A stretch of DNA of 64,000 nucleotides from Ulota crispa (taxonomy: Eukaryota > Streptophyta > Bryopsida > Orthotrichales > Orthotrichaceae), in NCBI GenBank assembly GCA_963920765.1, contig OY987244.1, positions 9,922,501 to 9,986,500 of the forward strand, given 5' to 3'. The translations under genes and the position numbers were made by a program. Below are positions 10,070 to 59,109 of this stretch, in pieces (the stretch's first letter is position 1; each line of letters starts with the position of its first letter). Below the pieces are notes generated by a model. That model made no database searches and had not been told where the DNA came from. It saw nothing but the letters and a program-made list of their open reading frames with translations.

Positions 10070-10358
10070 GATTTAGCACTCGTGAGCGCAATCGCATGCG
10101 TCGATAGAAGGTTCTACAATGCCAGGCGAGTGTTTCAACAAAATTCTGGAGATCCTCGCAGCAACAGCAAAGGAGAGAAGAACAGAGAGAGCTGTGTCAA
10201 GGCTGCTGACCCTGAAACCTTGAGGGAGGAGACGGCGTGCTCTCATGGATCCCAAGATGGATGAATGATTTTCATCGGATTATCATCGATTTGGCCAGTC
10301 CCCTATGTTTTGGAAGGTGGTATTTGTACGTAGAAAATACACTATTTTCATGATTTAA
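10070..10358 (-). promoter_or_regulatory. CCT1 5' UTR and proximal promoter
   Basis: This 290-bp stretch separates the CCT1 start codon from a TTAA-flanked transposon. It is richer in GC than its surroundings and open in several frames without similarity to anything I recognise. No TATA box is evident. The distal promoter must lie inside or beyond the transposon. Confidence 0.5.
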
Positions 10359-10904
10359 CCCCTGAAGGGCCTGAACGCCCTTTGTGGCCGTACGTGTGAT
10401 TGTAAGGTAGAAGGCTCGAAAACCGTCCAGGCTCGAAAATCGCTCACCTTTCAAAATGTTCTGTACATGTATTTTCTTATAGATTTCTATAATATACAGC
10501 GGATGTACATTTAAGGAGGTGTACTATTTTAGAGTCCTATGATCTTTTCACTTCAAAATTTCACAACTAATTCTACAAAACTCCAAAAAATATGAAACAA
10601 TTTAGGCTAGATGTCAATTCTTCTTATCTTTCATAGAAATTTTATTGAAAAATATTTCAAGAAGTTCTACCTCCCCAAAATTCAATTTCAGCCCTTAGAT
10701 GGTCGGTTTTTGAGCCTTCTACCTTATAAATGAACTTGTTTGAGCTGCTCTGAGGCCTTTTCAAATTTTTTTATGCACCCACCATCATACAACCCTTCAA
10801 TATGTATGATTGTAACACTTAATTTTCAGTTGATTCAAACTTTTGAATATTGGTTGCAATTGTATTTGGTACCGTAGCTTTAGAGCCCAAGGGCCCTTCA
10901 GGGG
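10359..10904. mobile_element. TTAA-flanked element, 546 bp
   Basis: TTAA (10355-10358) is followed by CCCCTGAAGGGCC, and the right end reads GGCCCTTCAGGGG followed by TTAA (10905-10908). The 13-bp terminal repeats match perfectly. Sub-terminal segments are also inverted: 'aaggtagaaggctcgaaaac' near 10406 against 'tttttgagccttctacctta' near 10705. There is no coding capacity. It sits immediately upstream of CCT1. Confidence 0.8.
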
Positions 10905-10908
10905 TTAA

Positions 10909-11135
10909 TCCTTAAACGACCATAGGGAATAGTATTTACGTTGACATATAACTGTCATTTGTTACCAATAAAAAAAACTTAATTTGGGATCTCAAGTAGC
11001 TCACTAGAACCACATTGATCTATTCTCCAACTTCTTTGTTAGTCTCAAATGTAGTAGAAGTGTGAATCCTTTCCAAATACAAGAAAGATATCTTGTATTG
11101 TACTAGTCACAAAGGGCCTTTCAGTCATTTAAGGG
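10909..11135 (+). mobile_element. TTAA-flanked miniature element, left member of an inverted pair
   Basis: 227 bp between TTAA at 10905-10908 (shared with the 546-bp element) and TTAA at 11136-11139. Ends are TCCTTAAACGACC and, reverse-complemented, CCCTTAAATGACT. It is an inverted copy of 11140-11365, with long near-identical blocks such as 'ttgggatctcaagtagctca'. Confidence 0.75.
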
Positions 11136-11139
11136 TTAA

Positions 11140-11365
11140 CCCCTAAAGGATGGAGGGTGTTGCTACGAACAGTAGAATACAAGGTGTTTTTCTTGTATTT
11201 GGAATAAATTCACACCTTTATTGCATTTAAGATCAATAAAGAAGTTGGAGAATAGATCAATGCAATTCTAGTGAGCTACTTGAGATCCCAAATTAAAATT
11301 TCTTATTGATAGCAAATGACAATTATACATCAGCTTATATATTATACCCTAGGGTTGTTTAAGGG
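11140..11365 (-). mobile_element. TTAA-flanked miniature element, right member of an inverted pair
   Basis: 226 bp between TTAA at 11136-11139 and TTAA at 11366-11369. It is the reverse complement of the preceding element with scattered differences. The two could instead be one 457-bp foldback element with an internal TTAA. Confidence 0.75.
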
Positions 11366-12069
11366 TTAACATGAGAAGCCTTGATTTTTCCCATTTGAGT
11401 TCTAATTTCTTTTAATGCAGAAATGATGAGCAATGAGTTTGAAACAACAATGAAAGAGGTTCACTTTCATATACCTAGATGAAGGATATAACTCTATTGA
11501 TTGTCGAACCATAAGTGGACTACAAATTTATTTTTTGTTGTAATTGTCGTTAATTGGATCGTTATAAACGCTGCAAATTCTTTGTTTTGACAAGTTATTC
11601 CAAGATAATCCAAGAGAAGGAGAAACATCTTTAAGCTCTTTATAAAATTGGTATAAACTAAAAGTCTTTGTAACGTAAGTTTCACATCACAATCTTCAAA
11701 GACAATGCAAGGGCCATTACAACCATGCAATGTACTTAATCTTCCAAAAAAAATTATATCATACTACGTGATTTTTAAAAAAACGATTTTCTATATCATG
11801 AATGGTTATTGTTTGTTTTGGATAAACTCAAATTAACTAGCTATTTTTTTCAATTCTATTGACACTAGAAGAAAAAGGGGTCAAATCTAATTGACTAGTA
11901 TACAACTCCATGTCCAAAACAATTGCACCAAGACTGCAGAATGACTATAAGAAATGGTGGAGTTGAGGGAGATGCAGTGTAGTAGTACTATTCTCTGTCA
12001 CGGATGAAGTTTGTTTCAAATAGATGAAGTTGGTTTTCATTACCTATTTTAGATTCACTAGCAGATGAA

Positions 12070-12440
12070 TATGCTGCAACTCTGACATTCCTCTGACAAT
12101 TGTGCCAACTAGTTATTGGGGGGTTGAAGTTCTTTACAACTAGTGGGCTACCATTACTCCAATGCTACTCAAGAACAACTCAAAAAGAACTATGGCCAAG
12201 TTTTCTAGAAAATTTCAAGGACCTTATTATTTTAGCTACCCGTCGTGATGCCCCTATGCTGCAGTTTTGACATTCCTTTGACAACTCAGTCAGCTAGTTG
12301 TAAGGGAGTTGAGGTTCTTTACAACTAGTGGGCTACCATTACTCCACTACTACTCAAAAACAACTCAAAAAACACTATGCCCAAGTTTTTTAGAAAATTT
12401 CAAGGACCTTGTTATTTTAACTGTCTGTCGTGATGCCTCA
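12070..12440. repeat. Tandem direct repeat, two units of about 185 bp
   Basis: Units start at about 12070 and 12255. Both run from 'tatgctgca' through 'ctttacaactagtgggctac' and 'aaatttcaaggacctt' to 'cgtcgtgatgcc'/'tgtcgtgatgcc'. It lies in the sub-terminal part of the CACTA element. Confidence 0.8.
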
Positions 12441-12963
12441 ATAGTCATCAATTTCTCTCTACTCACTTTCAGTGTAAATGCATCCATATGAAGTAGTAGT
12501 GTAGCAATTGTTTACAAGTTGTTCATGAAGGTTTTATAGATAATTTCAAACTTTTCATAGAGGCATTGTATAGTTGAGCTACAGTTGTATTTAAGATGTA
12601 TATCAACGTTCTCATTTTGCAATGACAAAGATTTGATTTTGGATTAAGTCTACCTGTAGAAGGAGGACGTCAACCATGGTAGCAAAAATCACATATATTT
12701 CATGACTAGAAGTATAGATTACATAAAATATGCATTTCTTGAGCTAGCCACCATTTAGTACGCTCTAATATCTTGTATGAGCTAGTAAATTATCTTCTGC
12801 GGATAATTCAATTGCAGACAAAAGAACACCAAACTTTATTGCAAAAAATCAACCACACAAACTTCTAGAAGAAACGTGTCTTGGGAAACCCTAAACCTAA
12901 AGCCAATTTTCTGTCTCCGTCACTTGGATTTGCATTAAGAGGCACGTAAAAGTAACTATAAAG

Positions 12964-13499
12964 TTGGATTCCATAACAAAATCTCCTCCTTTTGGTACAC
13001 CCACTACACCTTCTTTGGAATTAAGGTTTAGCATGTCAAATCCATTGCTGATAGTAGCAAGCTCTTCATTACTTGTAGGTGAAGGAGTGGCGCAAGAGCT
13101 TGTGTTGCATCAATGGCAGTTACAACTAAATCAAAGCTTCCACCACTACCTCCACAAAGAAGCTCACGATTGAAGAGCACCAAGGCATTAGGGTCCGCAT
13201 CTTTGTCCATTGATTTTGGTGCAAGTTTTCCAAAGGAGGTGAGAACATCCGCGTCCGCCGGCGGAAGAGATTCCATGGTAGAAGCAAAGGTTGGAGCTTT
13301 GGAGGGCCTCTCTAGTTCACACGCAACGTTCAGCAAGGGAACACTTTGTTTCATAGGAGGGGGCGTGTATAATTTGGCGGGCGCTGCATTGCCGGAGAAG
13401 ATGTCAATGGTGGACTCAAGCTCAGAGTCGTTCAACAACTCTGGAAGGGATTTCCACAACATTGCACCAAGTAAGATTATCTACTCTAAAAACATGTAA
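12964..13499. pseudogene. Possible captured gene fragment inside the CACTA element
   Basis: A higher-GC island, open on both strands. The minus strand is open for 144 codons (13462-13028), with proline- and aspartate-rich text such as LPPADADVL and DPNALVLFNREL. The plus strand is open for 128 codons (13113-13499) and is serine-rich. I recognise neither. Composition unlike the surrounding AT-rich element suggests transduplicated host sequence; strand and identity are open. Confidence 0.35.
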
Positions 13500-15032
13500 T
13501 CGTCGATAATCTCTCTTGTGCTTCCGATGCATGCAATGCATCTTTGGGAATCACCTCCCTTCTATGGGAGTCACCTTCTTTCTACGGGAGTCACGTGATT
13601 CATGGTTGAGTTGTTTATGCTTTTCAGTAGTTTTTTCATAGTTATCACCATTACTTTGGCAGAAGTAAATCCCTTTGCAATAGTTGTATCACACTTGTCA
13701 CCAGTTACAGTGTAGTTATTTATTGTACTCAGTGGTTATATCGTAGTAGTTTTCTGTGAAGATGTAGTTGCTCATTCTACTCAATAGTTGTATTTCAATT
13801 GTTTTTAGTCATGGTCTAGTTGTTTTTTGTACTAAGCAGTCATATTATAGTTGTCACCAGTCGTGGGATACTTGTTTCGTCATATGGTTGAAGAATCTAA
13901 TTGACTCTGGTAATACTAACTATGATTTTTGAAACTTTGAAGTAGGTACCCATCGACGCAACAGTCACACCCACCGAGGTACACAAGAAGGGTAATGAAG
14001 GAGGAATTGCGTTGTGTATTGCAGCTACACAGTTCTTTATTCCTTAATCACAATTGCAACTCCATTGAAGACAAACTACTTAATTAGTAGTACTATTAGC
14101 TTCAATAGAAAAGAACAACACTAGAGCATACCATATACAATTCCAAATCAACTATGGTTCAATTACCATATACAACTCCAAATCAACTATGGTGCAACTG
14201 AACATGAATTGTCCTAGAAATGTGAAGAGCAAGAGGGACCTGCATGCAGGTAATAATAATACAGTAAAGAAATTTATAAATAGAATCTCAACAAATGGGG
14301 GCCCAACACCTGCCAAAACCCAGAACCACTTCTAGTTGTGCAGTAGTTGCAATCGAGTGTCGCATTTGGGCACCTCAAAAAAATTTAGTGCCCGTAGGAA
14401 AATTTTGGGCACCTGCTAGACTTGCCCCACCTCCAAAAAAACACTAACATAGATGATGAAGCAGATGCGTGTCAGAAGGATGAATTCTGCACAGATGCCA
14501 TTACTGTTTGACATCCAAATTCAAACACGTTCACAATAACTAGGAGCCAACTACAAGTAATGAAGTTGTTTTCTAGTTGTTTGTGTCATTTACTACTAAA
14601 AAATGACTTGTTTTCAAAGTTGTATATTTCCTATTTTCTTCTAGTGTGATGTTTGTTTAGCAAACAATTTCTCGAAACAATTTATATACTATACCTCTTA
14701 TATAAAAATAATATCATATTCAATGAACTTGATGAATTTTGAATACAACAAATATGTAGCATGTATCTTGATACATATTTTCATATAAATCTCTTTAAAT
14801 CTCAAAACTTTTGACTTATAAGTTCTTACAATGCAAAATACTTTTGAAATAAACGTCTTTATAAAGAGATGTTCAACAGTTTTGTATACGTTATTATAAG
14901 ATGTTCCTTGCTTTGTGGTTAACTTTAAGAATGTGGATACTTTATTATCTAATGACTTTTGGTGTGTAAGTATGAATTGTGCAAAACTAAGTTTGTGCAC
15001 CTTTTTGTCAAACAATAAATGGTCACTATTTT

Positions 15033-15173
15033 CACTAGAAGAAAAAAGTGTTCTAAACAACTAGTTCACAATGAATACAATTGTCCTAAAGAACTACAAT
15101 GACTCAATTACAATTGTTTAGGACAATTGCAGTTGGTTAGGACCAATTGTTTATTGCACATTTTCTTCTAGTG
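15033..15173. mobile_element. Miniature CACTA element, 141 bp
   Basis: CACTAGAAGAAAA at the left and TTTTCTTCTAGTG at the right, flanked by TTT on both sides. The interior is rich in 'caattg/acaatt' words. It shares terminal repeats with the 2.8-kb CACTA element nearby and could be moved by the same transposase. Confidence 0.8.
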
Positions 15174-16037
15174 TTTTGTGCATTCCATTTTTATTTTTCT
15201 AGTACAAAAATAGAAAGTTGAATAGTAGTGCTTAACGCATTATTCATGCAAATGAACTCACATTCTTCACCTTGGCACTTGAACAATTAGATTCAAGAAT
15301 TCATTCAATAGCTAAGTACAACATATTAAAAAAGTCAAGTGTTCTTTTATAAAATGGAGGAACTTCATGAATATGATAAAATTGATTGCAAACTCCATTT
15401 GTATGTACTATTTCAACATTCACAAAAGTCAATTTTCAATTGCAAAATTAATCATGATTCCAAGCAACAAAAAATCATTACAATGTTGTCAACTTTTAAT
15501 TGGCAAAGTATTGAACGCAATGCCAAACCTAGGCCATAGTTCTCTAAAACTAAAGTGCCATCTTTTGGTTTATGCAATATTTTTAAGGATTTTGAGTAGG
15601 ATGTTTGTTTGTTTTGAAAATATTCAACGCTATCATCTAAACTAGTGATGACACAAATTTGTTACATATCTACTTTTGACAATATGGTTAACCAACACGG
15701 TGATTGGAAAACTCTAGATTTCTTGTTGTTGATTTCTTAAAAAAATGATGTGCAAATTTTTAACAATGAACAAATCATTAAGAAGAAATTGAGCCCTCCA
15801 AACGGCTACAAGTTTGGTTGTTCTCGATGCTGGGAACTAGTCCCTGCTGGTTGTCAAAAATATATACATATATATAAACATATATTTATATTTAATCATA
15901 TCATTTGACGCGGTCAAGCTTTGACCAAGTTAGCCTACCCACGTGGAAGTGTTCCCATGTTTTGGGGGAGTGGACCCAAAGTTCCCATGGTTTTGGGGAA
16001 GGGGCCTCTTCTTGGGCCCAAATCCCTTGCAATGTTA
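15174..16037. other. AT-rich intergenic DNA
   Basis: No gene recognised. Contains an AT-rich run near 15860-15900 and short repeats of 'agttcccatg-ttttgggg' near 15950-16000. Confidence 0.4.
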
Positions 16038-16041
16038 TTAA

Positions 16042-16967
16042 CCCTTAAAGGACCAAGCCTTTTTTTTTGCCAAAATCACTAAAAACTGCCACTTTTAGGA
16101 GGTATAGAAAAAAATCATTTTATGTTTTGTTTTTGGGAAATCCAACCGTAGGATCTTGCCCTAGATTGGAAGAGGTACTTGATAAAAAAATGAGCTCATT
16201 CCAAATGGAGAGGAGTGACATATTTACATCTAAAGTGAAATAAAAAGTTTTTTTTCATGCTGCCCAAAAATTTCACAAGCCTTTGACCACTATTATAACA
16301 AAAAAACTGCTCTACCCAAAGTTGCGCTTTATTTTTTCCATGTAAGAGATCAAGTTAGGTATGTGTAGGAGAATTTTCAAATCAATTGGAACTTTACAAG
16401 ACATGGGAAAAAATAGTAAGTAAAAAGAAGTAGAGAATGAGTCAAAACACTAAGTTGTTAAGAATTTAATTATGGAAATGAAAAATGCAAATTCCAATGG
16501 TAATAATGTTGTGATAAACAATCTACTTCCTTTGGTTTAAAATTTTCTCCAAAATAATGAAAATTGAGTAAAATAAAGGACTTCAAAGTTTATTTTAGAG
16601 GAGATTTCATAACTGCCCGCAAACAAAAACTCCTCATGACTTTCATGTCATTGATTGAAATTGAACAAGTCAAAGCTTCTCATGAATGATAAAATCTAAA
16701 GAACCAATTTCAAATTTGTGTTTTAAAAAAAAAAAAAATTTAAGAAGTTTTTGGGCTGCCCTTCTGGGCAGCCCTCCCCAAATTTTCACAAATCCATGCA
16801 TAACTTCTTCGTCAAATGTTGAAATGAAGAAAAAATTAGATGCTCACGTACATATTTGAAGTCTCCACCTTCAATAAAAGTTTCAAAAAATCACACAAAG
16901 TAGTTTAGCCATAGGTACATGCCCAAAGTCTAGCTTGTCCCCCGAAGGGACAACGGTCCTTTAGGGG
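16042..16967. mobile_element. TTAA-flanked element, 926-bp family, copy 1
   Basis: TTAA (16038-16041) then CCCTTAAAGGACCAAGCC; the right end is GACAACGGTCCTTTAGGGG then TTAA (16968-16971). No coding capacity. Closely related copies lie at 21440, 29690 (reverse) and 43348. Confidence 0.85.
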
Positions 16968-16971
16968 TTAA

Positions 16972-18419: not shown

Positions 18420-18420
<1 letters not shown>
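16972..18420. other. AT-rich intergenic DNA
   Basis: No gene, RNA gene or clear element boundary recognised. Only short frames. Confidence 0.4.
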
Positions 18421-21439: not shown

Positions 21440-22354
21440 CCCCTAAAGGACCAAGCCATTTTTTATGTGAAAAACACAAAAAACTACCACTTTTGGGGAA
21501 GCAAGTACAATGGTAAGAAAAATAGGTCTTTACAAGAATTCAATTGTAAGATCTTACAATAGACTACAAGAGGTACACGTGGTAAAAAATTCAGCTCAAT
21601 CTACATAAAAATGAGTGAGTTATTTACATCTAAATTGAGGATTTTTTTTTGCTGCTGCCCAAAAATTTTAGAAGGCTTTGACCACTCTTAGATCAAAAAT
21701 TACTCTACACAAAAATGTGGTTTTTTTTTACCATGTAGGAGACCAAGTTAGGTATGTGTGGGAGAATTTTCATATCAATTGGAACTATACAACACATGGG
21801 GAAAAATAGTAAGTAAAAAGAAGTAGAGAATGAGTCAAAACACTAAATTGTTTAAGAATTTAATTTAAAAAATGAAAAATGCAAATTGCAATGGTTATAA
21901 TGTTGTGATAAACAATCTACATCCTTTGGCTTTGTTTTTTTTCCAAAATAATGAAAATTGAGTAAAATAAAGGACTTCAAAGTTTATTTTAGAGTAGAGA
22001 ATCTAGAACTGCCCACAAACAAAAATTCCTCATAACTTACATCTCATCTATTGGAATTGAATGATTCAAAGCTCCCCACGTCTATATAAGTCTAAAGAAC
22101 CTATTTCAAATTTTTATTTGAAAAAAATGAAATTTTTAAAGAAGTTTTTGGTTGCCCAAGGAGCAGCTTTTTCCAGATTTTCATGCATAACTTCTTCAAC
22201 AAATGTCAGAATGAAGAAAAAATTACATTCCCACATAGATCTTTGAATTCTTCACCTTTAATAAAAATTTCAGATTATCATGCAAAGTAGTTTAGCCATA
22301 GGTATATGCCCAAAATCCCAATTGTCCCTTGAGGGGACAATGATCCTGTAGGGA
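21440..22354. mobile_element. TTAA-type element, 926-bp family, copy 2 (diverged)
   Basis: Starts CCCCTAAAGGACCAAGCC and ends GATCCTGTAGGGA, flanked by ATAA on each side instead of TTAA. Internal sequence aligns with the copy at 16042 along its length (shared words such as 'gtaagtaaaaagaagtagag'). An older or off-target insertion. Confidence 0.75.
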
Positions 22355-29689: not shown

Positions 29690-30736
29690 TCCCTAAAGGA
29701 CCATTGTCCCTTCCGGGGACAAATGGGAAACTTTTATCAAAGGTGAGGAATTCAAAGATCTATGTGGGAATGTAATTTTTTCTTCATTCCGACATTTATT
29801 GAAGAAGTTGTGCGTGAAAATTTGGAAAATGCTGCTCCCTAGGTAGCCTAAAACTTCTTTAAAAATTTCATTTTTTTCAAATAAAATCTGAAATAGGTTC
29901 TTTAGACTTATATAGATATGGGGAGCTTTGAATCATTCAATTCCAATAGATGAGATGAAAGTTATGAGGTGTTTTTGTTTGTGGGTAGTTCTAGATTCTC
30001 TACTCTAAAATAAACTTTGAAGTCCTTTATTTTACTCAATTCTCATTATTTTGGAAGAAAAATAAAACCAAAGGATGTAGATTGTTTATCACAACATTAT
30101 AACAGTTGGGATTTGCATTTTCATTTTAATAATTAAATTCTTAATAATTTAGTGTTTTGACTCATTCTCTACTTCTTTTTACTTACTATTTTTTCCCATA
30201 TGTTGTATAGTTCCAATTGATTTGAAAATTCTCCCACACGTGCCTAACTTGGTCTTCTACGCGGGAAAAAAAAACCTCAACTTTGCATAGAGCAAATTTC
30301 TTGATATAGTAGTGCCTCAATATGATGAAGGTGTCTGGACAGCATATTCATTTCATGTAAGGAAAACATTCATTGTAACTAAAAGATCTTTTGTAGCTCC
30401 CCAGCCGCCAGAGACACTCATCTACTTCATCTTAGCCAAGCATTTTTTCTTATAAAGGTTCATCTTAGCGAGGCACTACTGTATAGCAGTGGTGAATGGC
30501 TTCTAAAATTTTTGGGCAGTACAAAAAAAAACATTTTTCTTCACTTCACATGTAAATATCTCACTCCTCTTCATTTGGAAGAAGCTCATTTTTTTCCCAA
30601 GTACCTCATATTGATCTAGAACAAGATCTTACGATTAGATTTCAAAAAATAAAAATAAAATACCATTCCTTTCATCCTTCCAAAAGTGGCAGTTTTTAGT
30701 GTTTTTCATAGAGAAAAGGGCCTGGTTCTTTAGGGG
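29690..30736 (-). mobile_element. TTAA-flanked element, 926-bp family, copy 3 (reverse, with nested insertion)
   Basis: TTAA (29686-29689), then TCCCTAAAGGACCATTGTCC; the right end is GGTTCTTTAGGGG then TTAA (30737-30740). Orientation is opposite to the other copies. Its 1047 bp exceed the family length mainly because of an insertion at 30307-30481. Confidence 0.85.
30307..30481. mobile_element. Pogo/Tc1-mariner-like miniature element nested in a TTAA element
   Basis: 175 bp. Left end TAGTAGTGCCTC..TATGATGAA; right end reverse-complemented CAGTAGTGCCTCGCTAAGATG. TA flanks both sides (30305-30306 and 30482-30483). A CAGT...CTCG-type end with TA duplication is typical of pogo-like elements. 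Removing it restores alignment with the other copies of the host element. Confidence 0.7.
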
Positions 30737-30737
30737 T

Positions 30738-35500: not shown

Positions 35501-38500
35501 CAAGTAAGGAAAAACATGACCAGAGCCATCCATGCTTGTGCATATTTATTTGTGAAATCAGCTGGTATCATTAAATTTCATCCAAAAATTGGTGCACCCA
35601 ATGTTTCTTTGAGAAGAGTTTGGCAATTTCATCCCAAACTTCAACCCGTTTTTCTGGTGGTGAGGTAGCCAATGTCAAAAGGAAGTATGATTGTGACAAA
35701 AACTTGCGTAAAGAAATTTTCACTGAGTTGAATAGTGACTTCTTTTCCATCCTTTGCATACAAGAGTCAATAGCTACATTTTGGACTTTACCTACGCTGA
35801 TAAAAGACTTATCATCACTTGAAAATCAACATCCTAGCTTGGTAGTAGATCAACCTCCCTTCAGTCTAGCATGTTTTGTTGTGTAGACAACATATATAGA
35901 AATGAGGGCTTGATTTGTGGGGTTCTTACCTTGTTTAAAGCGCCCAGACTAATCACTCGCACTCCAGTGTCTTGAGCTTTGAAAATGGCTTGTTCTATAA
36001 GGCGGTTGATGCGCCTCTTCTCAAACGGGAGAAAATACTGCCACACCAATAATTGTACATTCAAGCCTGTTAAAATATGACCACCTCTAAATTGACATTC
36101 TAAAATATATTCCTTACACTTGCCACCATATCATAGATAGGCATTTTATGACTTGCCAACATAGGGCCCATTTTTATAGTAGAGCCAAATTATTGACCTA
36201 ATTTTCAAACCACCAAAGTGAATAAAAAAGATTACTCAAATCCTCAAATCAAGGCAACAATCAAGACCTTAAACTTTACACTAAGTTTACCAATCACCAT
36301 AATTAATCTTGTTGATAACATGGCCACTTTTACAACAAAATTTTGGCACAAAAGATTGAACCCAAGTCAAAAATTTATATTAAGCCACCACAATGCATCG
36401 ACTCAATTCAAAAAGATGAACCCAATTTGTTAATTTGAAATCAGACCAAAATACATGTAAACACACAATCACACCTTCGGCAGTTAGGCCCAATCGATAA
36501 CCCACTGGACTGTGGATTCGGCCTAAGCTCACAATGCAAACCAAACAAGGAGCTCACGACCTCTGAACGACACTGCAAAAGCAAGAAGAAGAAGCAGAAG
36601 AAGTGTAGTAGGCTTGGAGAGAAGGAGGGAGAAGTGAAGAAGAAAGAGGAGCAGAAGGCAGACAGACCTGGAATCCGTAGCGGGGGACGACCCAGGTTTC
36701 GGTGCGGAGGTGCTTGAGGCGGTAGGTGTCGGCGGTGAAGACGGTGCCGAAGAGCCACAGCAGCAGCATGATGGGCAGGGCCAGCGGCCACAGCGGCCAC
36801 ACGAACCACTTGGGCGCGTACGGCCACGCGGCGAAGGCCGGGATGCCGAAGGGCAGGTGGAATGCCGACAGCAGGTCCAGCCCGTGCGCCAGAAACACGA
36901 AGTCCGGCTTCTCCTGCTTGCCCTGCCGCACTTGCTCGTAGAGCGTGTCCGAGCACTTGTCCGCCGTGCCCCCCAGGTAATCATACACCGGCATGAAGAG
37001 GGCGAAGTTCGTGTGCACATGCGAATGGTGCAACGAATGGTACCTGCCAAACCCCAAACACCCAAAACCAACACCAACACAAATCATCAGATCTTGTCAA
37101 GGAGTTGTCTTATACGATCTTATGAAAGAAGCTCCTTGTACCTCTGCAGCTAAAGCCAACTCTATCTACTGCAAGAAACACACTAGTTGTAAACCCGCGC
37201 CCAAGATCCCTCAATTGTCATTAGTTGGATGAAAACATTATAATGTAAGATTCAAATTGGCCTTAAACTATGTTGAATATATGACAAGGTCTAAATGTAG
37301 TAATGCAAGTAGACCAGTTGTAAGAGATGGAGGTTCTGTAAGCTCTAATAGTTCTATAAAAACATACCGAAACATCCACCCGATATTCAAAAATTAAACG
37401 GCTATGCAAAAGAAAAAAAAAGGAACAATTCTACCATCAATTAGTGTGCATACTTGGGATTTGGCATGGACGGGGCATGTAGGTATTTGAGGGACTTGTA
37501 ACGTTATTGTAAGGTGCTTCTGTCCTTGAGAATAGACACTTGTTTACTTACACACATTGCTGTCCACACACAAGATGTTACCGCTACCAAGAAAAAAAAA
37601 GAGATTCAAACATTGTTCTTGGGTTTTGATCAAAAGTAGATTTGAAGAGGTTGTCAAAAACAACAATATATTTCTTTTTTTAGTGTAGTATCTTGTAGAT
37701 GTGGTTTGATTGATAGTTCATTTGGTTTAAGGGACCCTATTACTTCAAACACAAGCATGCGACTTATTGATACAACATCAAAATCATACGTGTTGCTAGT
37801 GAGTTCTCAAGCATGGGGTCAATTAAACAAACTCTGTTTGAATGAAAAAGCTGAGGGCCATGGAAAGATCAAAAGGTTCATGGATTTTTTTAAACTTACG
37901 TGGGGGTGTAAACCAGGTACTTGAGAGGAGGGAAAACACGAAACACCCAAGTTGGAATGAACTCGAAGTTGCAGTGCCCAATGGCGTTCATGAAGTCAAA
38001 AAAGAGCCAGTAGAAGTAGATCATGCCCATACACGCTCCTCCGATGGCCCAGGTCCCCAAAAATGGCAGAGCGAAGTTTGCAGTGTACATCAAATGCTCG
38101 GCAAACGGATGCACCGACCCTGCTCACCCCCCAAAAAAAAGAAAACAAAGAAAGGAACAAACAAAAATCAGCAAAATAAAGATTAAATCCATTGCATTTA
38201 CAACACTTTCAAAACCTAATCCAAAAATTATGTTCAAGGCTACAATCCTACACAATTGTCATGCTCTTAGTGTCATAGCAACCAAAACTAAGATCCCACG
38301 TAGTGATATTAGAGAGGTATGTTGAAATGTACACCCAAAACGGCACCATAAGCCTGAGCTAAAGAAGAATCACGCATTCTCCAAAGAGTGAGCCTAAATA
38401 GATCCTCATTGCACGATGTTGAACATTTGACAATTAAAAGTTAGGGCATAGATTTGGAAAATCTACTCATTTTCGCGTGTGATACTTGGATTAAACGTAA

Positions 38501-43347: not shown

Positions 43348-44274
43348 CCCCTAAAGGACCAAGCCCTTTTTTTTGCCAAAATCACTAAAAATTGCCACTT
43401 CTAGGAGGTTTATAAAAAAGGGCTTTTATGTTTTGTTTTTGGGAAATCCAACCATAGGATCTTGCTCCAAACTAGAAGAGGTACTTCTGGGAAAAAAATC
43501 AGCTCATTTCAAATGGAGAGGAGTGACATATTTACATTTGAAGTGAAAAGAAAAGTTTTTTTCCATGCTGCCCAAAATTTCACAAGCCTTTGACCACTCT
43601 TATAACAAAAAAATTGCTCTACCCAATGTTGCGCTTTATTTTTTCCATATAGGAGATCAAGTTAAGTATGTGTAGGAGAATTTTCAAATCAATTGGAACT
43701 ATACAACACATGTGAAAAAATAGTAAGTAAAAAGTAGAGAATGAGTCAAAACACTAAATTATTAAGAATTAAATTATGGAAATGAAAAATGCAAATCCTA
43801 ATGGTGATAATGTTGTGATAAACAATCTAGTTCCTTCATTTTAGTTTTTTTTTCCAAAATATTGAAAATCGAGTAAAATAAATGACTTCAAAGTTTGTTT
43901 TAGAGTTGAGATTCCATAATTGCCGGCAAACAAAAACTCCTCATAACTTTCATGTCATTGATTGGAATTGAATAATTCAAAGCTTTTCATGAATAAAAAA
44001 ATCTAAAGAACCAATTTCAAATTTGAGTTTAAAAAAAAAAAAAATTTAAAGAAGTTTTTGGGCTGCCTAGACGGGCAGTCTTCTCCAAATTTTCACAAAT
44101 CCATGCATAACTTCTTTGTCAAATGTTGGAATGAAGAAAAAATTAGATGCTCACGTACATATTTGAAGTCTCCACCTTCAATAAAAGTTTCAAAAAATCA
44201 CACAAAGTAGTTTAGCCATAGATACATGCCCAAAGTCCAACATGTCCCCCAAAGGGACAACGGTCCTTTAGGGG
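43348..44274. mobile_element. TTAA-flanked element, 926-bp family, copy 4
   Basis: TTAA (43344-43347) then CCCCTAAAGGACCAAGCCC; right end GACAACGGTCCTTTAGGGG then TTAA (44275-44278). At 927 bp and closely similar throughout to the copy at 16042, this pair looks like the youngest of the family. Confidence 0.88.
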
Positions 44275-44299: not shown

Positions 44300-45906
44300 T
44301 GATACATCTTGTTTTTGAATTAAATAAAACTGTTAAAAGAAATGGATTTGATTTGGAAATCAAGAATTGATAAGAGGATAAGAATCTTGAGTGGAGGTTC
44401 AGCATGGGTTAGAGGATGAGCTAACGTGCACCTTACTTTAGAAAAAGTGGAAAAGTAATGGAAAGTTTCTCTTTAGCAAGTATGAATTGAGCGTGAGTGG
44501 CAATTAACTGTTAGTAGAGCAAACCAAACCTTAAAAAGAGGATAGTTTTTGAGTTAGGGATGATCTATTATTGTCTACTAGTATACTATCCGTTGTACCA
44601 ACAAGATTATGCCTCCCACCCTCTATCCTTGTGTTTTCCAATCCTTATGTCATCTATCTCTTTGCCTCTATCTTTGTGCCTCTATCCTTGTGCTCCTTTA
44701 TTTCCGTGTCCCATATCCCCGTGCCTTCATATCATTGTGCCCATTTATCCCCTTGCCCTTCTATTTCCGTGTTCCCTATCCCTGTGCCTTCTATTCTTGT
44801 ACCTCCTATCCCCATGGCTCCTATCCTCGTATCCTCTTATTCTTGTGTCTCCTTATCCCCGTGCCCTCTTTTGGTTGAGAGAAAGTTGTGGTGCAATTGC
44901 CACTGATAGTGCAACTGCTAGTGACGGTGCAACTGCCAGTGACTTGTTGTTAATGTCTAGTGAAGCAGATAAAAGAGAGTCATAGGTGATTTTACTTTAT
45001 TAATTTATACCTTTTTGATCCTAGTTATGCGCAAACCTAACTTATGCCCAACCCTAATTGATTGAACTCTATCATATGATAGGTCATAACTGACTGACCA
45101 CTATTATTTTATTAATATAGATTGTATCTTTTTTCTACAAAATTTTGAAAGTTTGTTTTTGGTGAGGAGACATTTCTGAATTGTATTTGCAAATTTGATT
45201 TGGAGCTAGGATGCAAAAGTTATAATTGCTTGAATTTAAGGATAGCCAAGCCATATGAGGTAGAAAGGCTGAGACTTTGATAAGCCAGAGCTGACGTTTA
45301 GTCCATTATTTTGCAACAAGATTTGTAGGATGTGTTCTTCTTTGTCTTAGCTTTCAAAGAAGTTACTGGAGTTGAAATTTAAAGTTTTGAAAAGAAAGTT
45401 ATGAAGGAGTAAAGGCTTCAAAGTTGGCTATCTTTTGTGAGAGGGAGGCTGCAACTTTGGAGAGCCATAACTTTTGATGAGGTTTATATTCTCTTTTGGA
45501 AATTTTATGGGTGATAACTTGTTGGATTAGTTTTTCAGATTGTTATCATTAATTGTATTTGGAGGATTTTTGAGAGAGTTGTGTTGTTTGAAAGTTTGAG
45601 AGATTTTGGAGTTTTTCATAGATTTTGGGAAGTTCATAGATTTTGGAAGTTTTATAGATTTGGGAGTTTGATAGATTATATGTCTTGAGACTTTTGGAGG
45701 GATTAAAGAAATTGAGGTGGATCTCATTTTGCAAAGCAAGTGCTCTTTAGAATTTTTCTTTTGAGCTGATAATAGGAGAGGCCCATTTTGCAGAGCAAGT
45801 GCTCTGTAGAATTTTGTTAGAGTCTGCATGAAGATTCACTAACCACACACACAGTTGCAGCTAAACACCCCAAGTGTTTTCAAGGCGCGCTCTTCTCGAC
45901 CCGACA
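44300..45906 (+). mobile_element. Solo or truncated LTR related to the retrotransposon at 59.5 kb
   Basis: The stretch aligns with about 59480-61187: shared blocks include 'tttgatttggag', 'ggatgcaaaagttat', 'gaaaggctgagactt', 'attttgcaacaagattt' and the end 'aaggcgcgctc.tctc.acccgaca'. The retrotransposon continues after its LTR with TTTGGTGCTTCC; this copy continues with unrelated CCGGGGG, so no internal region follows. The left boundary is uncertain. Confidence 0.65.
44610..44870. repeat. Degenerate minisatellite, unit about 15-16 bp
   Basis: About sixteen imperfect units of the form 'tcctatccttgtgcc' in tandem. The long frames over it (44560-44985 and two others) encode repetitive Pro/Cys/Leu text in all frames and are by-products. 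It lies inside the LTR-like block. Confidence 0.8.
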
Positions 45907-46012
45907 CCGGGGGTTGATATATGCACACTTTGCCAAGATAAATTTTAGGTTCCTACCATCAGAAAGCTAAATTTGAAAATTTTGAATTCAAATTTGGACC
46001 AGGAGACTTTGA

Positions 46013-46170
46013 TTTAGTCTAGAACTGTGAAGGAGGTTGCAATTGAACAACACCCACTAAAAGAGCTTAACTAGAAGAGAAAATGTTACTTATAATTTTG
46101 TTTGTAAAAGAGATCAATTTTTTCACTAAATGTTGTTCAATTACAACCTCCTACATAGTTCCAGACTAAA
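46013..46170. mobile_element. Foldback miniature element, 158 bp
   Basis: Arms pair over about 40 bp: left 'tttagtctagaactgtgaag', right reverse-complemented 'tttagtctggaactatgtag', both continuing into 'gaggttg.aattgaacaaca'. The loop is AT-rich. It abuts a CACTA-type terminus at 46171. Confidence 0.75.
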
Positions 46171-49307: not shown

Positions 49308-51850
49308 TTACCTTCTCCAATCCTCTAGAGAAGCAACATTGCTCAAGACAAATTTGTGGATCCATTCACGGAGATCACGTGATAAAATATGTAAGTCGCC
49401 TTTCCCTTCCATGATCTCGTTGTACATAGACGGGTCTTCTTTGTCATCCCAAATTCTTTGTATTGTCACCTTGTACTCTTGCATGTACTCTGTACAAAAA
49501 CCTAATGCCTCCACAATGGCATAACCTTCAACCATACTACCCTCCGATTGAGCTTGGTTTTGCACATAACTTTTCAAAATCTTCAAGTACCTTTCAATGG
49601 AATACATCCACTAAGTGTGCACGGGTCCGCATAACTCCACTTGCTCCACTAGGTGAAGAACCAAATGGTTCATGATGTCAAAAAATGATGGTGGGAACTC
49701 TTTCTCTAGCATACAAAGAGTGAGGGCCACATCAACCTTCAAATCCACAATATTAGTAATAGAGATAGTCTTAGCACAAATCCTCCTAAACAAACGTGAC
49801 ATCATGATAATAGTAGAACGCACCTCTTTCTTCATGACTGTTTGAATACACATTGGGAGGATTTGCTGCATTAAGACATCGTAGTCATGGAACTTAAGGC
49901 CCTTCAAGGTACCATCGACATGTACGCGCTTCTTGAGCTGACCAACATATTGTGTAGGTGTATGCAATGACCTAATTTGATTCACAAATGAATGCTTCTC
50001 TTCTTTTGACAAGACATAAGGCGATTGTGTTAGAGCAATGCTTCTAGCAGTCCTCCCTGGTACAGGCCACAGATGTTTCCTTAGATCAGCTTCTTTCATA
50101 TCCAGTCTTGTTGCTATAGTGTCTTTTTCTCCAAATTGGGTTTTCATAATGTTTTTAGTGAGGTTTTTCTCACAGTGCATGACGTCTAACGTGTGGTGAA
50201 TTAGTATATCTTGCACATTTCACAACAAAACATTAGATTTTGTTCATACAAAAAAGGAAATTTTTTCAAAATGGTTGACCTCTTCAGGTTTCAATTGAAG
50301 CCCTTGGATGCTCATTTAAGGAGACTCCTTCCCTACTATGTGCAATTTCAAACATCTGCAAAAACGCATTTTTGAGTTCAAGGTTTGTTGATTACCCACC
50401 TTCCAATACACCAAACTATACAAGACTGTTTTGCGCTTGACTCCGTGCGTGTGCATTGGATTTGCCGTTTGACCACTGTTAGTTCGTCCAACATCCTCCT
50501 ACCAGTCTTCACGGTCTTGTGCGTAACAAAAGACCTCGGCCCCAGTCATTATGCCCAGTGCTTTTCCAAATTTGGATTTCCTATCAAAATTTGCTTGCTG
50601 CTTCCTCTACAGATGGCCTATAGGCAAGTGACGTCTATGACCAAGGTACACGTTCTTGTTCAGTGACTTTGATCAATGTGTCTCCACATTTGGGCCACAC
50701 AGAGGGCATGTCCTATGTCCTTTTGTAACTTGACCTGCAATGAGCCCATACGCCGCGAAGTCGTGCAAAGTCCACATTAGGATGCTGCGAAGTTTGAATA
50801 CCTTTCCTTCTTCACGTAAAACCAAACCATCAAGGCAATCAACCCCGGCCTACAATCTCTATAGTTCTTCAATCAAGGGGGCTATGTACATATCAATGTT
50901 TTTGTCAGCTACACTCTCTTTTCCAGGAATAATCAACAACAGTTGACAGCATCATAAAAAAGTTCTTTGTTACCAACCACGGCAATAGATTATAGTTAAG
51001 CATTACCATCGGCCAAGTGGAGTGACTTAAGCTCTGGTTACAAAAGGGATTTACTTCATCCAATGCCAATCCTAATTTGACATTCCAAACTTTGTTTGCA
51101 AATATAGGCTACGTTTTGTTGACATGATTCCAAGCCTTGGAATCAACCATAGACCTCATCACGTTATTCAAGCTCTTACCACTCGCATGCCATCTCATTA
51201 ATTTGGCCAACCTTCCACAACTGTACATCCTCCATAGGCGAGGAATCAGTGGAAAATGTCTTAAGACCTTTACGGGCACTGAGGTCAAGTTTGTGACATA
51301 AGGAGACTTGTGGCATACAAGACACTCCTTAGCATGTTCCAAGTCTTTCTTGAATAGGCAACAACCATCTTGGCAAGCATGTATAGAGTTATAGGACAAA
51401 CCTAATCTCATTGACATGGTCTTTGCTTCATAAAATAACTTTGGTAGAGTGTTCTCTTTCAGTAGTAAAATGCCTTTTAGAAGTTTCAGTAGTTCCTCCA
51501 CAAAGCTATTAGGAACTCTGAATGTGGTGCAGCAAACAAGTATTAGAAGTATCGCTGTAAGTTGGTTGGTTTGGCTTCCAGGGATTAACAACGTTCTCGC
51601 CTCGCGCATGAGGTTGTTGATGTTCATACTAGCTGGATCATCCACATGTACATTGGTCTACCTCATATCAAATTCCTCTTGATTCTGCTCTATCTCTTCT
51701 TCCTCTTCTCCAATGTTTACGTCAACCATGCCTTCAAACTCGTTGGTGATCCCAATACCATTCATATTGTCCTCCATTTTGTTGTTAAAATTGAGATTGT
51801 CATAAGACTTGAAACATTCGGTAACCATTTGCAAGACATCCACATCCCCT
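49308..51850 (-). pseudogene. TNP2-like CACTA transposase, degenerate
   Basis: En/Spm-type transposases cut and paste CACTA elements. The TNP2 order is visible on the minus strand: an acidic N-terminal part (51843-51658), then 51645-51109 with EELLKLLKGILLLKENTLPK, LGLSYNSIHACQDGCCLFKK, CLVCHKSPY and RHFPLIPRLWRM; further decayed text to about 50.2 kb; then 50216-49611 with LDVMHCEKNL, LKGLKFHDYDVLMQQILP, FPPSFFDIMNHLVLHLVEQV, and 49607-49308 with MYSIERYLKILKSYVQNQAQ (DUF4218). An in-frame TAG splits GPVHT from WMYSIERY where the family has a sense codon, and other breaks lie between the blocks, so this copy should not yield full-length transposase. Confidence 0.85.
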
Positions 51851-53777: not shown

Positions 53778-55147
53778 CGTTCAATAAGTATTCTCTAACA
53801 ACAATAGATATGATAGTACTTTAGGTAGTTGCTATTCATATACCCAAGAAAAGAATTATACTACCTTCAGAGGGTGACTAGACAAAGACAGATGATGCAT
53901 TACAGTCACATGACATCTACAAGTTATTTTGCCGTAGCGCTGATGTAACAAGAGACAGTCAACTATTGTAACTACGCCGTAGGCGTCGCCACAGTCTATG
54001 CAAATAGTGTAAGAGGTCTTGTACTCAAAGCGGCTGCCAAAACCACGCGTCCTAAACTACATATCACGCATGTTTTTTTGGCAAAGAGGTATCAAGTCCA
54101 GTAGTTGTGATGGCATTTTGGTGTGAGGAAAAGATCCAAGCAATAGTAGCATCTGGCTTTCTTATGCTCAAAACATGGCTTCTGCCCCCATCAATGAGTA
54201 TGAACAATTCAAGGCAAGCAAAATTGCAAGAGTGCAACGCCAAAATGTGCAAACTAGGACTATCAACAAGAGGAGACAAAATTCTACAGCAAGAAGAGCT
54301 TTGGTACGCTACTGACTAATATGTCATCATTATTTTTTTTTGTTGCGGGCGCCTCGTACCCAAAGTTAAAGGGTTCTCATTTCACGCCGCGAAACGTGAA
54401 GTTGATCCAAGGGTGATTGCTGCAAAGCTGGTTCAAGCGCCAGGCACATGCACTGGACCTGCTGAATTTGTTGTCCTCAAAGTCATTGACGTTTACAACG
54501 GAAGCATTGGTGAACAAGCCAAAAGTAGTTAATGCTTGCAAGTCACCACGCAATAAAATTAGCAGGATTTTTCCTATTCAAACAATCTTTTTTTACGCTC
54601 ATTTCTAGATATGGTGCAGTTGATTCTCTCATGTCTGTTTGAATGGACAGCGCAGTTGTCATGTGCTACTAGGGTTTTAGACTCAAGAGTGACATGACTC
54701 CTTGCAATTATAGTAGATGTGACACCACGGTGTTGTACACTTCGTCTCTTTCATTTTGCAAAGTGTTTTTCTATTGCATTCTGCTTTCCTATGTTCTAGA
54801 GCTTTGCCGGTAGACATCAACAACACCTAAGTCCGGTGGGTGCTCCAACCTCTTCATGCGTGAGCGGGTGAAGAATGGGTGTGCTCCTATGCGGTGTGTG
54901 AGGGTTTGGGAGGAAGGAGGGTGATTTCATGTGTGTTCTTTGGGAGAGGGGGAGAGGTGGGGGTGTTGTGAGTGCATTGGTGGGAGCGGGATTGTATTGG
55001 TTGGTGGCCTTCCGCTAATTATGTTGTATGTTTCCCGCTTTAGATTATTGTTAGCATGCTAACACTGGAGAGTGTCTGAGGCCTAACTAGTGCAGGTAGT
55101 ACGACTTGTAGCAAAAACATCGTGACACATTCGAAAGACAGTACAGG
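53778..55147. other. Intergenic DNA, no gene seen
   Basis: Mixed sequence with short frames on both strands (for example 54107-54319) and no recognisable domain. Confidence 0.35.
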
Positions 55148-56555
55148 ATGGGTGATGCGTTGAGCAATTACATAAGAATTGTTGCTAATTTACCCAAAAT
55201 TGATCAAGTGGAACTATTCCGCATAATAACATCTTTTCCGGCTATCACCTTGCCAATATTTGAATTAGTTGCTAACCAAATTGCGGGGATTTTGGAGAGC
55301 AACTTGGAGGTGCCCGTTAAAGTCTCTCACTTGCAAAAGCAAAAGGTAAGGGGCACTGAGACACAACGGAGCTGCCAATTACTGGAAATGACAAAGGCTT
55401 GCAAGGACAAGGAAGACCCTCCCTATTGGACGGAAGAGGAGGAGGATGACAAAGTCCCTTCCAATGAGGAGGAGGACGAGGAGGTCCAATTTGAGGAGGA
55501 GGCATATTTGGACAAGGAGGCATTTGAAGAGGACATCCCTCAGTTGAAGGTCCGTTTTTTGAGAACCTTATTTACACGTTATTGTTGTCAACTGCAACAT
55601 GAAGGTCAAGTCATGCCATCCGTCACTTGTTGGAGTCCCAACACATTGAAGGGGAGGCCAAGAAATTGACAATTGATGGTTGCCACTTGCCACATCCGTG
55701 CCCAAGAAATGGGAGAGGACAAAGTGCCTACGGCCTCGCCTACGGAGAAATGGCCACCACAAGAATTTTAGAGGAGTAGTGCTGAGGGTGATCAAAATCT
55801 CATTGCTGAAGAACATATGAATTCATTTCTTGACAAGCTCAGATTAGATGAGCTGCTTGTGAAGCAACATATGGCAAAGAGAGGTGTGTTCCCTGGAAAC
55901 CTTGAGGGGAAGGGGAAACATCTATAGCAAAAAGGCTTTATCAAGGAGCGCTGAAGTAGCCTGACCCCCTCTCCAATTGGAGCATTGTCAACATCGCCAT
56001 GCACACCACCTGCGAAAAACAAGGGTGTATGTGAGCAAGCAAGGGATGCCGAGAAATTGGACATATGAGAGTGGATGGAGCTGGACAACAAAGGAAGGCC
56101 TACAGGTAAGTACAAGCGTGTCTATTTGAGGAAGCTCTGGTGTTTGTCACGGGACCTTAACTGGGGCAAGTGTAAATTCAATAAACACCCACGACAACTT
56201 GTCCTTGCAATCAAAGAAAAAATGGCGGCCACTTTCAACTACAGTGGCATTTTTGGTAACATCCTCGAGGACATTTTCCTAGAGTTGATCAAAAAGCAAA
56301 TGAGGACAAAAAGGTTGAACATGAGGAAGATTATCAACTCTAGGTCCTCCCTACCCCCAAATGTGAAGAAGTCGCATGTTGAAGACTTGCGGAAGTTAAT
56401 TAAGCGGAAGGACAAGATAGAGGAATTTAAGCGCATGAAGAGGGTTTGTGGCTTGTTGCCAACGCGGTCCAACTCAAACCAATCGAAGGAATTGGTAAGA
56501 TCACGCTTAGTAAGAATCTACAACATTCCTACACTCCCCTTTTTGTTGAACTAAT
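55148..56555 (+). pseudogene. Unrecognised acidic and basic frames, probable transposon ORF remnants
   Basis: Frame 55148-55669 (173 aa) starts MGDALSNYIRIVANLPKIDQ and carries a strongly acidic run, EEEEDDKVPSNEEEDEEVQF. Frame 56075-56554 is basic (GRPTGKYKRVYLRKLWCLSR; repeated Lys/Arg) and could continue the same gene after a break near 55670-56070. I know no family for them. The 3' end runs towards the assembly gap. Confidence 0.3.
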
Positions 56556-56560
56556 ACTCT

Positions 56561-56760
56561 NNNNNNNNNNNNNNNNNNNNNNNNNNNNNNNNNNNNNNNN
56601 NNNNNNNNNNNNNNNNNNNNNNNNNNNNNNNNNNNNNNNNNNNNNNNNNNNNNNNNNNNNNNNNNNNNNNNNNNNNNNNNNNNNNNNNNNNNNNNNNNNN
56701 NNNNNNNNNNNNNNNNNNNNNNNNNNNNNNNNNNNNNNNNNNNNNNNNNNNNNNNNNNNN
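56561..56760. other. Assembly gap (200 Ns)
   Basis: Exactly 200 unknown bases, probably a placeholder of fixed length. Frames reported across it have no meaning. Confidence 0.99.
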
Positions 56761-57820
56761 ATTCTTACACAAATCAAAGTGGCTTTTAAAATTTCAAATA
56801 CCACAAGGGCATATTTGATATTTCAAATTAATGGAGGGGCCTTTTTTTATATTCTTCCAAAAAAACAAGGGGTGTCAATGATATCCTCAAAGACAACCAA
56901 GGATAGAATTGATGTTCTACAAAAAGTTAAGGGTATTTTTGATATTTGTACACAAAGCCATAATGCAATATTCATTAGTTTGGGAGAAATCTTTGATTTT
57001 GGGACTTCTGAAATTTTCCTTTTTTAGAGCTTTGAGGTGATTTAGATTGAGTTTTATTATAATTTCTTTGAGACGTTACATCAATGATGAAACATCTTGA
57101 AGGAATTATCAAAAAACTCAATTTAGATCTCCAAAATATTCTCACAAATGCAAAATTTGAGTATCCCAAAATTTGTTTTGGGAAAGCATTTATCCCAAAT
57201 TAACAAATATTGTGTTCAAGGGTGTTTACATATTTCAAATCTCTAGGGGTTATATTTGAAATTTTGATGAATTGAGGGGTATTTTTGGTATTTTCCCTAC
57301 ATTTTTCACTTAGAAAGAAATGAGGTTGTGTATTTCTTCTCTCTCGAGTGGCCCTTCTTGTACCAAAAGTAACTCACCCCCAGCTCCAAACGATATGGGA
57401 CAAACCCCCCACTCTCCCTTACAAGTGGTTTTATGAATAAAACGAGCTTAGTATAAACCGCATGACTTAGGACGCCAAATGTAGAACATGGAATACAGCA
57501 TGCGGGATGCAGAACACATGATGCAAGATGCGGGGTGCAGGATGCGGAATGCATGACAAGGCCGACTAGCCATGCGACGGGGTGAGACCCGGGCCCTTGC
57601 CTTGCCCCGCGTGCCATGTTGGCTTGGGCAACTTTCAAGGGCAACATTTAACGTCCTGCGTATGGCACTCCATCTCCGAAGCCTGTGTGGCCCTGGCATG
57701 AGTGCAGACGATTTGATATTTTCAGTATCCGCCTCATTATTGGCTCTTGGCTCTGGATCGCAAGGAGAAGCTAAGGCTTTGCATTGAGAGAAGGTATCTG
57801 AGGAAGTTTGAGTAACTTAA
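56761..57820. other. Repeat-rich intergenic DNA
   Basis: The first 540 bp are rich in 'atttcaaat/attttggtattt' words. A GC-richer stretch at 57330-57700 carries a short tandem array. No gene recognised. Confidence 0.4.
57490..57560. repeat. Short imperfect repeat of GATGCRGGATGC type
   Basis: 'gcatgcgggatgcag', 'gatgcaagatgcgggg', 'tgcaggatgcggaatgc': about six units of the 'gatgc' motif in direct order. Confidence 0.6.
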
Positions 57821-58725
57821 CCCTTTAGAGACCACCGAACCATATTTTGGTTCAAGAGAGTAGTTTTTGGCCTATATTGTAAAATTGCTCAACAATTTGG
57901 AAAATGGTTTTGATGAACCCTTGTGATCACAAATTTTTTGCATCCAACCCAAAATACAACAATAGAATCAGATATGGGAGTTGATAAATAATGGTGTTTA
58001 TACATCATGACCTCAAAATACGTATCCATATTTGGTCAAAGATGGATCAAAGCAACAACACAATACATCAAACATCCAAGAAGAATGCCATATTTCAATT
58101 ATGCAATCTTTAAAAACCTCTTATTGCTCAAGGAATATGCTTGTATTGTTTCTCCATATGGTAGTTATACAATTGTATTATTTGAGAATCCATTGAAATG
58201 ATGCTATCAATTTATTTAAAAAAAAGTTTATCCTACAGTTAAGGCCAATTCTTGATTGCTTTCACCAATTGGATTTTTTGTAACAATTATCAAATTTTTT
58301 GTAGAACCGTTTTATGGTAGCAAAGAAAATGGGATTTTTGACCCTTTTTGACCACTTAGCTACACCTTTTGATTGCTATTTTTATCTATTTTGAGTGAAA
58401 CTAATCTTGTTGGAAAGGAAACCCTACTTTCTAGAAATGTAAGGCTTTTCTCAATCAAAGCTTGCATGAAGCGCTAATATTCAAAACCACACAGGCATGA
58501 AAATCTAGAGATTCTCCAAATACGGCTCACTCAATTGTTATAATATTTCACCTCTAATGGTAGATCTAGCTGAAATTTTGATACATTGCAAAAAATAAGG
58601 TGCCCTTCACATTTGTACGGTTGGATTATTCAAATTGGGTCCATATTTGATTCAAATGCACATCTAATCTTATTGCCCCCTGTTTCTAGTGGATTTTGGG
58701 AAAATGTGTGTGTTTTTCTAAAGGG
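57821..58725. mobile_element. TTAA-flanked element, 905 bp, separate family
   Basis: TTAA (57817-57820) then CCCTTTAGAGACC; the right end is GTTTTTCTAAAGGG then TTAA (58726-58729). The terminal repeat is short but the end pattern CCCTTTAG-CTAAAGGG follows the other TTAA elements. The interior is unrelated to them at a glance and non-coding. Confidence 0.7.
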
Positions 58726-59109
58726 TTAAGCTTAGGCAGTTTATTCAAGAACAAAGTAAGCTTAGAGAGTCAAAAATTGAAACTTGGTGCTTCACACTAC
58801 ATCCCAAGTCCCACGTTTGGGTTCATTGCATTTTACCAACATGGCTTTCAGAATGTTTGGTGTCAAAGAAGGTAGGAACTTGTTATTTGATGGGGAAAAC
58901 GGAGGTACCATTTTGTACTCCACCTTAAACCCAAAAAGCCACCTTAAACCAGATTTGAAGGTATCAAATTCAGTCTAAGCCACTAAAAATTTTTCCCACG
59001 CAAATTCCTCCTCTCAAGTGAGGACGCTGTCCTGATGGACTTCCCTCCATCATGTAAATACTTGTTATTTCTTTATATTTGTGTTGATTTCAATAAATCA
59101 ACAGTTGAG

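Follow-up and report, generated by a model that had tools for sequence, protein, structure and literature searches.

Transposons of the piggyBac superfamily are mobilized by a transposase that binds their terminal repeats, cuts the element out and integrates it at a TTAA target, which is duplicated in the process. The ends start with CCC and the classical piggyBac element is about 2.5 kb long, and the piggyBac-type miniature inverted-repeat transposable elements (MITEs) of animals are short, carry the ends of a transposase-bearing element and lie between TTAA flanks. To our knowledge, few piggyBac transposases and ends have been described from moss-like land plants. Here we analyze a window of 64,000 nucleotides from Ulota crispa (assembly GCA_963920765.1, contig OY987244.1, positions 9,922,501 to 9,986,500), in which a first-pass annotation had marked eight short TTAA-flanked elements. 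We conclude that these elements are almost certainly non-autonomous (MITE-like) DNA transposons of the piggyBac superfamily, probably moved by the transposase of longer relatives in the same genome.

The system described here resembles the superfamily (Protein Data Bank (PDB) entries 6x67 and 6x68; piggyBat, 9c0f) in its duplicated TTAA, in a PF13843 domain with a D-D-D triad, in the minor targets CTAA and ATAA, and in inverted ends starting with CCC. It differs in that the host is a land plant and the PDB matches are moderate, and its transposase-bearing elements, at 5.5-8.8 kb, are larger than classical piggyBac, partly through nested repeats. Like the animal MITEs, the elements are short, are flanked by TTAA and have ends in common with a transposase-bearing element; unlike them, they come with thousands of exact ends of one type, and in a plant.

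In the relevant part of a review of land-plant transposable elements, six superfamilies of plant terminal inverted repeat elements are given and piggyBac is unmentioned (PMC9033089), as it is in the corresponding parts of a Physcomitrium patens transposable element paper (PMC7466625) and of a moss genome review (PMC13120521); the name does occur in a generic list of superfamilies (PMC10794571). In a repeat table for Ceratopteris richardii, 'PiggyBac' accounts for 1,230 copies and 122,417 bp (PMC6890710). Piggybac-like repeats have thus been counted in another land plant, but the line in that table gives no ends, targets or transposase, all three of which are described here. Among the top-ranked matches in the open-licence PubMed Central literature, we found no description of a bryophyte piggyBac family.

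Results

Family A shares both ends with transposase-bearing elements

The coordinates first given to the eight elements are exact in every case, with TTAA on both sides of seven and ATAA on both sides of the eighth (Table 1). An all-against-all comparison divides them into four families, A to D, in which we name elements by their start positions. The single end form first proposed for all eight holds for family A (16042, 21440, 29690, and 43348), whose ends are of the CCCYTAAAGGACC type with mutations in some (21440 and 29690 have TCC), but not for the element at 10359, which ends in CCCCTGAAGGGCC, or the one at 57821, which ends in CCCTTTAGA.

The assembly searched comprises 275 Mb in 157 contigs, most of it in ten contigs of 16-41 Mb, and contains 120 matches to PF13843 (DDE_Tnp_1_7, the piggyBac transposase model; best E 1.3e-73), obtained from 116 scored of 528 first-look candidates. 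As the first-pass annotation had stated of transposases, none of these matches falls inside the window. Two of the matching loci, L025 and L026, which are 61% alike and group with L011, have window-family sequence at their edges. L025 proved to be part of an element of 8,821 bp (C5:24506230-24515050; TTAA-CCCCTAAAGGACCATTGTCC ... GGCTTGGTCTTTTAGGGG-TTAA). The two ends of this element are 79.6% and 82.6% identical to 16042 over 358 and 195 bp, respectively, and one of them is 88.6% identical to 21440 over 176 bp. L026 is enclosed in an element of 8,522 bp (C9:12440864-12449385; TTAA on both sides), whose ends match 16042 over 341 bp (73.9%) and 185 bp (80.0%). The PF13843 domains stand between those ends (E 5.7e-63 in L025 and 6.7e-63 in L026). 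A search for an autonomous partner, proposed at the outset, has therefore led to elements with homologous ends that carry the transposase domain, though with stops. Because TTAA-flanked PF13843 elements share long stretches at both ends with 16042, we assign the class to piggyBac. The call first made from the ends stands on this evidence for family A, the only family with long ends in common with a transposase-bearing partner; we infer that piggyBac is also the superfamily of families B, C, and D.

Family A keeps both ends of an 8.5-8.8 kb transposase-bearing element, one over about 350 bp and the other over about 190 bp. In contrast to animal piggyBac-type MITEs, the middle (about 350-732 of 16042) has no match in the L025 or L026 element, the two parents found. 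Because the 441 bp that L038 has in common with the L025 element are inverted relative to the end, we do not claim this locus as an internally shortened derivative of that element. A repeat that reaches about 400 bp in length and matches in both orientations is nested twice in the L025 element and occurs also in the window (45904-46170) and in L004, L012, L022, and L033.

The four flanking bases are a duplicated target

TTAA is palindromic, and flanks alone cannot separate a duplicated target from bases that belong to a longer inverted end, such as that of a TA-target mariner-like element; we therefore used non-TTAA flanks to test target duplication. A, C, or G precedes TAACCCCTAAAGGACC at 325 places in the genome. 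For the first 30 of these VTAA loci in contig order (L036 and L037 being the two ends of one element), a partner end was sought with at most 2 mismatches in 13 and a small weight favoring a matching 4-mer. The identical 4-mer stood at the partner end in 7 of 14 CTAA loci and in none of the 10 ATAA and 6 GTAA loci, and in eight TTAA loci (L001-L008, two elements fetched from both ends) the partner had TTAA in seven and TTAT in one. The CTAA...CTAA pairs are the expected trace of insertion at a CTAA target. Most of the ATAA and GTAA flanks resemble TTAA sites that mutated afterwards, although 21440 has ATAA at both ends; CTAA/TTAG and ATAA/TTAT are given as minor piggyBac targets in a text citing Li et al. 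2013 (PMC6651600).

An empty-site comparison, also suggested in the first-pass annotation, used 23 element records (some of them one element twice), emptied by script and matched against our loci and the window. Three records matched elsewhere across the junction, one being L070, which is a tandem copy and was dropped as an empty site. The two paralogous sites that remain are L051 against L041 (127 of 155 bases, 2 gap positions) and L045 against the window site listed in Table 1 (4 gap positions), with no gap at or beside the junction in either. Both hold a single 4-mer between homologous flanks; it differs from that of the filled copy at both sites, which their sequence divergence would allow. 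The CTAA...CTAA pairs and the two empty sites ungapped at the junction establish that the 4 bp are duplicated target. The reading of TTAA as part of the element's own end, contradicted by the ATAA...ATAA pair at 21440, the seven CTAA...CTAA pairs and the single 4-mer at both empty sites, is left with hardly any probability.

Kolobok elements also duplicate TTAA, a target that the first-pass annotation had pointed out for them, so TTAA insertion with a 4-bp duplication fits piggyBac and Kolobok equally and does not discriminate between them. What contradicts Kolobok in family A is the PF13843 domain between ends that share about 350 and 190 bp with 16042, and we consider a Kolobok-superfamily origin highly improbable. 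Neither copies without TTAA duplication, nor TTAA as part of the element, nor a partner of another superfamily was seen in these searches, in which no Kolobok profile was included.

Abundance and age of family A ends

Exact CCCYTAAAGGACC occurs 10,851 times in the genome (5,383 + 5,468), against 5 for a reversed-pattern control, and TTAACCCYTAAAGGACC 9,236 times (4,623 + 4,613), against 0. TTAA thus precedes 85% of the exact ends (9,236 of 10,851), while it starts at about 0.48% of window positions (305 sites). Chance is excluded as an explanation because TTAACCCYTAAAGGACC is found 9,236 times and its reversed pattern never.

With 43348 (927 bp) as query, 8,966 candidate places were found. Among the 40 scored, the best other copy has 91% identity and the remaining near-full-length copies 85-91%. 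The family had been called busy at first reading, which is apt for its copy number but not for recent movement, given this best identity and the internal stops in 110 of the 120 PF13843 matches (10 have none). Family A is very numerous and shows no sign of recent movement in the assembly; a rare younger copy could have escaped, the scoring having covered 40 of the 8,966 candidates.

A diverse set of transposases

All large contigs from C1 to C11 contribute to the PF13843 matches, and contamination is not a plausible source of them because most of these contigs also carry light-harvesting genes. The light-harvesting protein L064, an LHCB protein, can be aligned along its length to chains of 8htu, the best match, and of 7xqp (456 bits each), the latter presumably from Physcomitrium patens, the same species as the former; the fused chain 9vfj_2 ranks first for L064 solely by summing two weaker domains (293 and 234 bits). 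8HTU is described as PpPSI-L (PMC10005731), where we take Pp to be Physcomitrium patens. This alignment and the composition of the assembly fit a moss-like land plant.

A 460-residue frame in L033 matches PF13843 in Pfam (E 2.2e-47) and, in PDB, piggyBat (E 4.4e-18) and piggyBac 6x67 (E 6.5e-16); a stretch that reads by eye as cysteine-rich follows the domain behind in-frame stops. We aligned 24 domains: those of the top 20 PF13843 matches and of L030, L031, L032, and L033. Median identity per domain is 31-38%, and several groups are less than 50% identical to each other. In the columns that we take, by analogy with piggyBac, to be the catalytic D-D-D, all three D are kept in 16 of the 24 domains, including L025, L026, and L033. 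The departures are D to N in 11 of 12 cases, which G-to-A change would produce and which agrees with decay of methylated repeats. In L029 (C2:34590449-34600448), the frame 4362-5531 on the minus strand encodes a piggyBac transposase domain without stops and with all three catalytic D, as in L019; it is possibly a domesticated copy or an element that has lost its ends. Stop-free transposase frames also lie at C4:3591922 and C6:21758576.

This diversity bears on the alternative that family A was moved by a piggyBac lineage of the same genome other than the L025/L026 type, which would leave the class call unchanged. In its favor, most other transposase loci were covered with 1.5-kb flanks only, in which their ends are not seen; similar 13-bp ends recur across clades of these very diverse domains, and the terminal identity of 16042 to L025 and L026 is 74-83% rather than near 100%. 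Against it, the homology extends on both sides far beyond the 13-bp end, and L025 and L026 are the only transposases that it surrounds in the loci examined, apart from a separate MITE that abuts the L033 element. We think it unlikely, although by no means negligible, that another lineage was the mover, and retain relatives of the L025/L026 type as the preferred source.

Ends of other transposase-bearing elements

Inverted ends starting with CCC are found in the window elements and in eight transposase-bearing elements (L013, L025, L026, L027, L030, L031, L032, and L033). L032, one of five loci taken at 10 kb, has the pair CCCTTGCACGTCC and CCCTTGCATGACC 7.5 kb apart with TTAA on both sides. 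The L033 element measures 5,648 bp (TTAA-CCCATTAAGGATC ... CCCTTTAAGGACC-TCAA), with a MITE abutting it directly at the mutated TCAA; an initial pairing of its ends as 1595-8215 was wrong, since a MITE of about 960 bp adjoins the element, whose end is 7246. The right ends of L030 and L031 have a common signature over about 20 bases, and the left end of L031, CTCTTTAAGG, is interrupted by a family D element. Departures from the CCC and TTAA pattern are TCC at one end of 10909, 21440, 29690, and L030, CTC at the left of L031, and TCAA at the right flank of L033.

Ends expected from L033 and its relatives in stretches of 1.1-1.8 kb were found in five of five cases, each with TTAA. Scored with a matrix that includes ends of L030-L033 and leaves out those found later (L030 left, L013, L027, and L025/L026), they reach 22.6 (L030 left), 23.1 and 22.6 (L013 left and right), and 12.1 and 14.2 (L027 left and right); a Markov control of 2 Mb gave 0 matches above 20 and 0.35 matches above 12 per 10 kb. 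The L027 ends are weak taken singly, yet they agree with each other. A second strong end (22.6) in the left stretch of L013 faces the opposite way and is taken to belong to a neighboring element. All five examined members of one transposase clade (L013, L027, L030, L031, and L033) have paired ends of the same type.

Elements and other features of the window

The lengths of 926 and 927 bp first noted for 16042 and 43348 are correct, and the two are 90.3% identical over their whole length; other pairs within family A reach about 73-90%, depending on the aligned segment. The extra length of 29690 comes from a nested insert of roughly 160-170 bp (30314-30482). The ends of this insert read about AGTGCCTC...GAGGCACT, and the family A alignments on either side of it have about 10 bp in common, where the TTAA pattern would give 4 bp.

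The two family C units lie in opposite orientation and are 82.6% identical over 195 bp. Their listing as separate elements was sound: the 227-bp unit is the element, because two copies stand in direct tandem at L070 and single units match in other loci, and on the same grounds a single palindromic element of 457 bp (10909-11365) is ruled out. At L070, the tandem family C MITEs adjoin one of eight strong PF00504 (light-harvesting) matches clustered at C4:21.39-21.77 Mb. The row of three elements at 10359-11365 had suggested tandem self-targeting, but exact abutting sites number 7 in the genome against about 16 expected from the TTAA density of the window, and there is thus no sign of a preference for neighboring element ends. 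Full-length copies of family D occur in L031 (87%), within the end of the transposase element, and in L030 (80%), with a partial copy in L002.

Table 1. Elements of the four families and the paralogous empty site, in window positions
Feature	Position	Strand	Flanks and relations
Family A, non-autonomous piggyBac element, 926 bp	16042..16967	+	TTAA both sides; ends homologous to the L025 and L026 transposase elements
Family A element, 927 bp	43348..44274	+	TTAA both sides; 90.3% identity to 16042
Family A element, 915 bp	21440..22354	+	ATAA both sides
Family A element, 1047 bp including nested insert	29690..30736	- (reverse orientation)	TTAA both sides
Family B element, 546 bp, ends CCCCTGAAGGGCC	10359..10904	.	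TTAA both sides; class from ends and flanks alone
Family C element, 227 bp	10909..11135	+	TTAA both sides; class from ends and flanks alone
Family C element, 226 bp, inverted copy	11140..11365	-	One TTAA in common with 10909-11135
Family D element, 905 bp, ends CCCTTTAGA (CCCTTTAGAGACC and CCCTTTAGAAAAA)	57821..58725	+	TTAA both sides
Paralogous empty site: relative of L045 element flanks, without insertion	57067..57210	-	111/145 bases, ungapped at junction

Three further features of the window were recognized by eye: frames at 49611-51657 (minus strand) whose translations resemble a plant CACTA-type transposase, an 873-codon open frame at 61205-63826 resembling the gag and protease part of a long terminal repeat (LTR) retrotransposon, and a frame at 36554-37096 (minus strand) like a plant CER1/CER3-like wax synthesis protein.

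Discussion

Target duplication, empty sites, ends in common and a transposase domain inside TTAA-bounded elements are all observed in this genome. The piggyBac kind of element is already known and the class call is firm; what deserves attention is that a land plant holds so large and diverse a population of it. As to how the short copies came to their sites, longer relatives at other places in the genome would have supplied a piggyBac transposase that recognized the CCCYTAAAGGACC-type inverted ends, and the copies would have moved by cut and paste, being excised and inserted at TTAA, or rarely at CTAA or ATAA, each insertion duplicating the 4-bp target. Cross-mobilization of the short copies and the steps of catalysis are modeled here on what is known of piggyBac.

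Several observations weigh against this account. The transposase domains of L025 and L026 have 3 and 2 in-frame stops, respectively, other repeats are nested in both elements, and no intact full-length autonomous copy was found; the two loci therefore demonstrate kinship rather than a functional helper. No transposase partner was identified for families B and C, and family D is tied to a transposase by a similar end type at L031 alone (CCCTTTAGCGACC). Paired ends were absent in 20 transposase loci taken with 1.5-kb flanks, because the transposase elements are longer than that, and L029 has no pair of TTAA ends within 10 kb. The search for a partner end, which allowed up to 2 mismatches in 13, found none at 6 of the 30 VTAA loci. 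Finally, the end of the L031 transposase element is interrupted at a TTAA by a family D element, where the relative L033 has one TTAA, but this third empty-site comparison is weak (39 bp, E 0.05).

Several transposase lineages less than 50% identical within one genome, thousands of derived MITEs, and a frame in L029 possibly taken over as a host gene raise the tentative possibility, which we do not hold to be the likelier one, that land plants, or at least this moss-like lineage, harbor a piggyBac radiation of their own that is both old and highly diversified. With 10,851 exact ends of one type and 120 matches to the transposase profile, piggyBac can form a large component of a land-plant genome, and the question of its origin there, by descent from algal ancestors or by horizontal transfer, is now testable. 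These results suggest that unclassified TTAA-flanked MITEs in bryophyte annotations may be piggyBac, and the biology of piggyBac gains a diverse set of transposases and ends.

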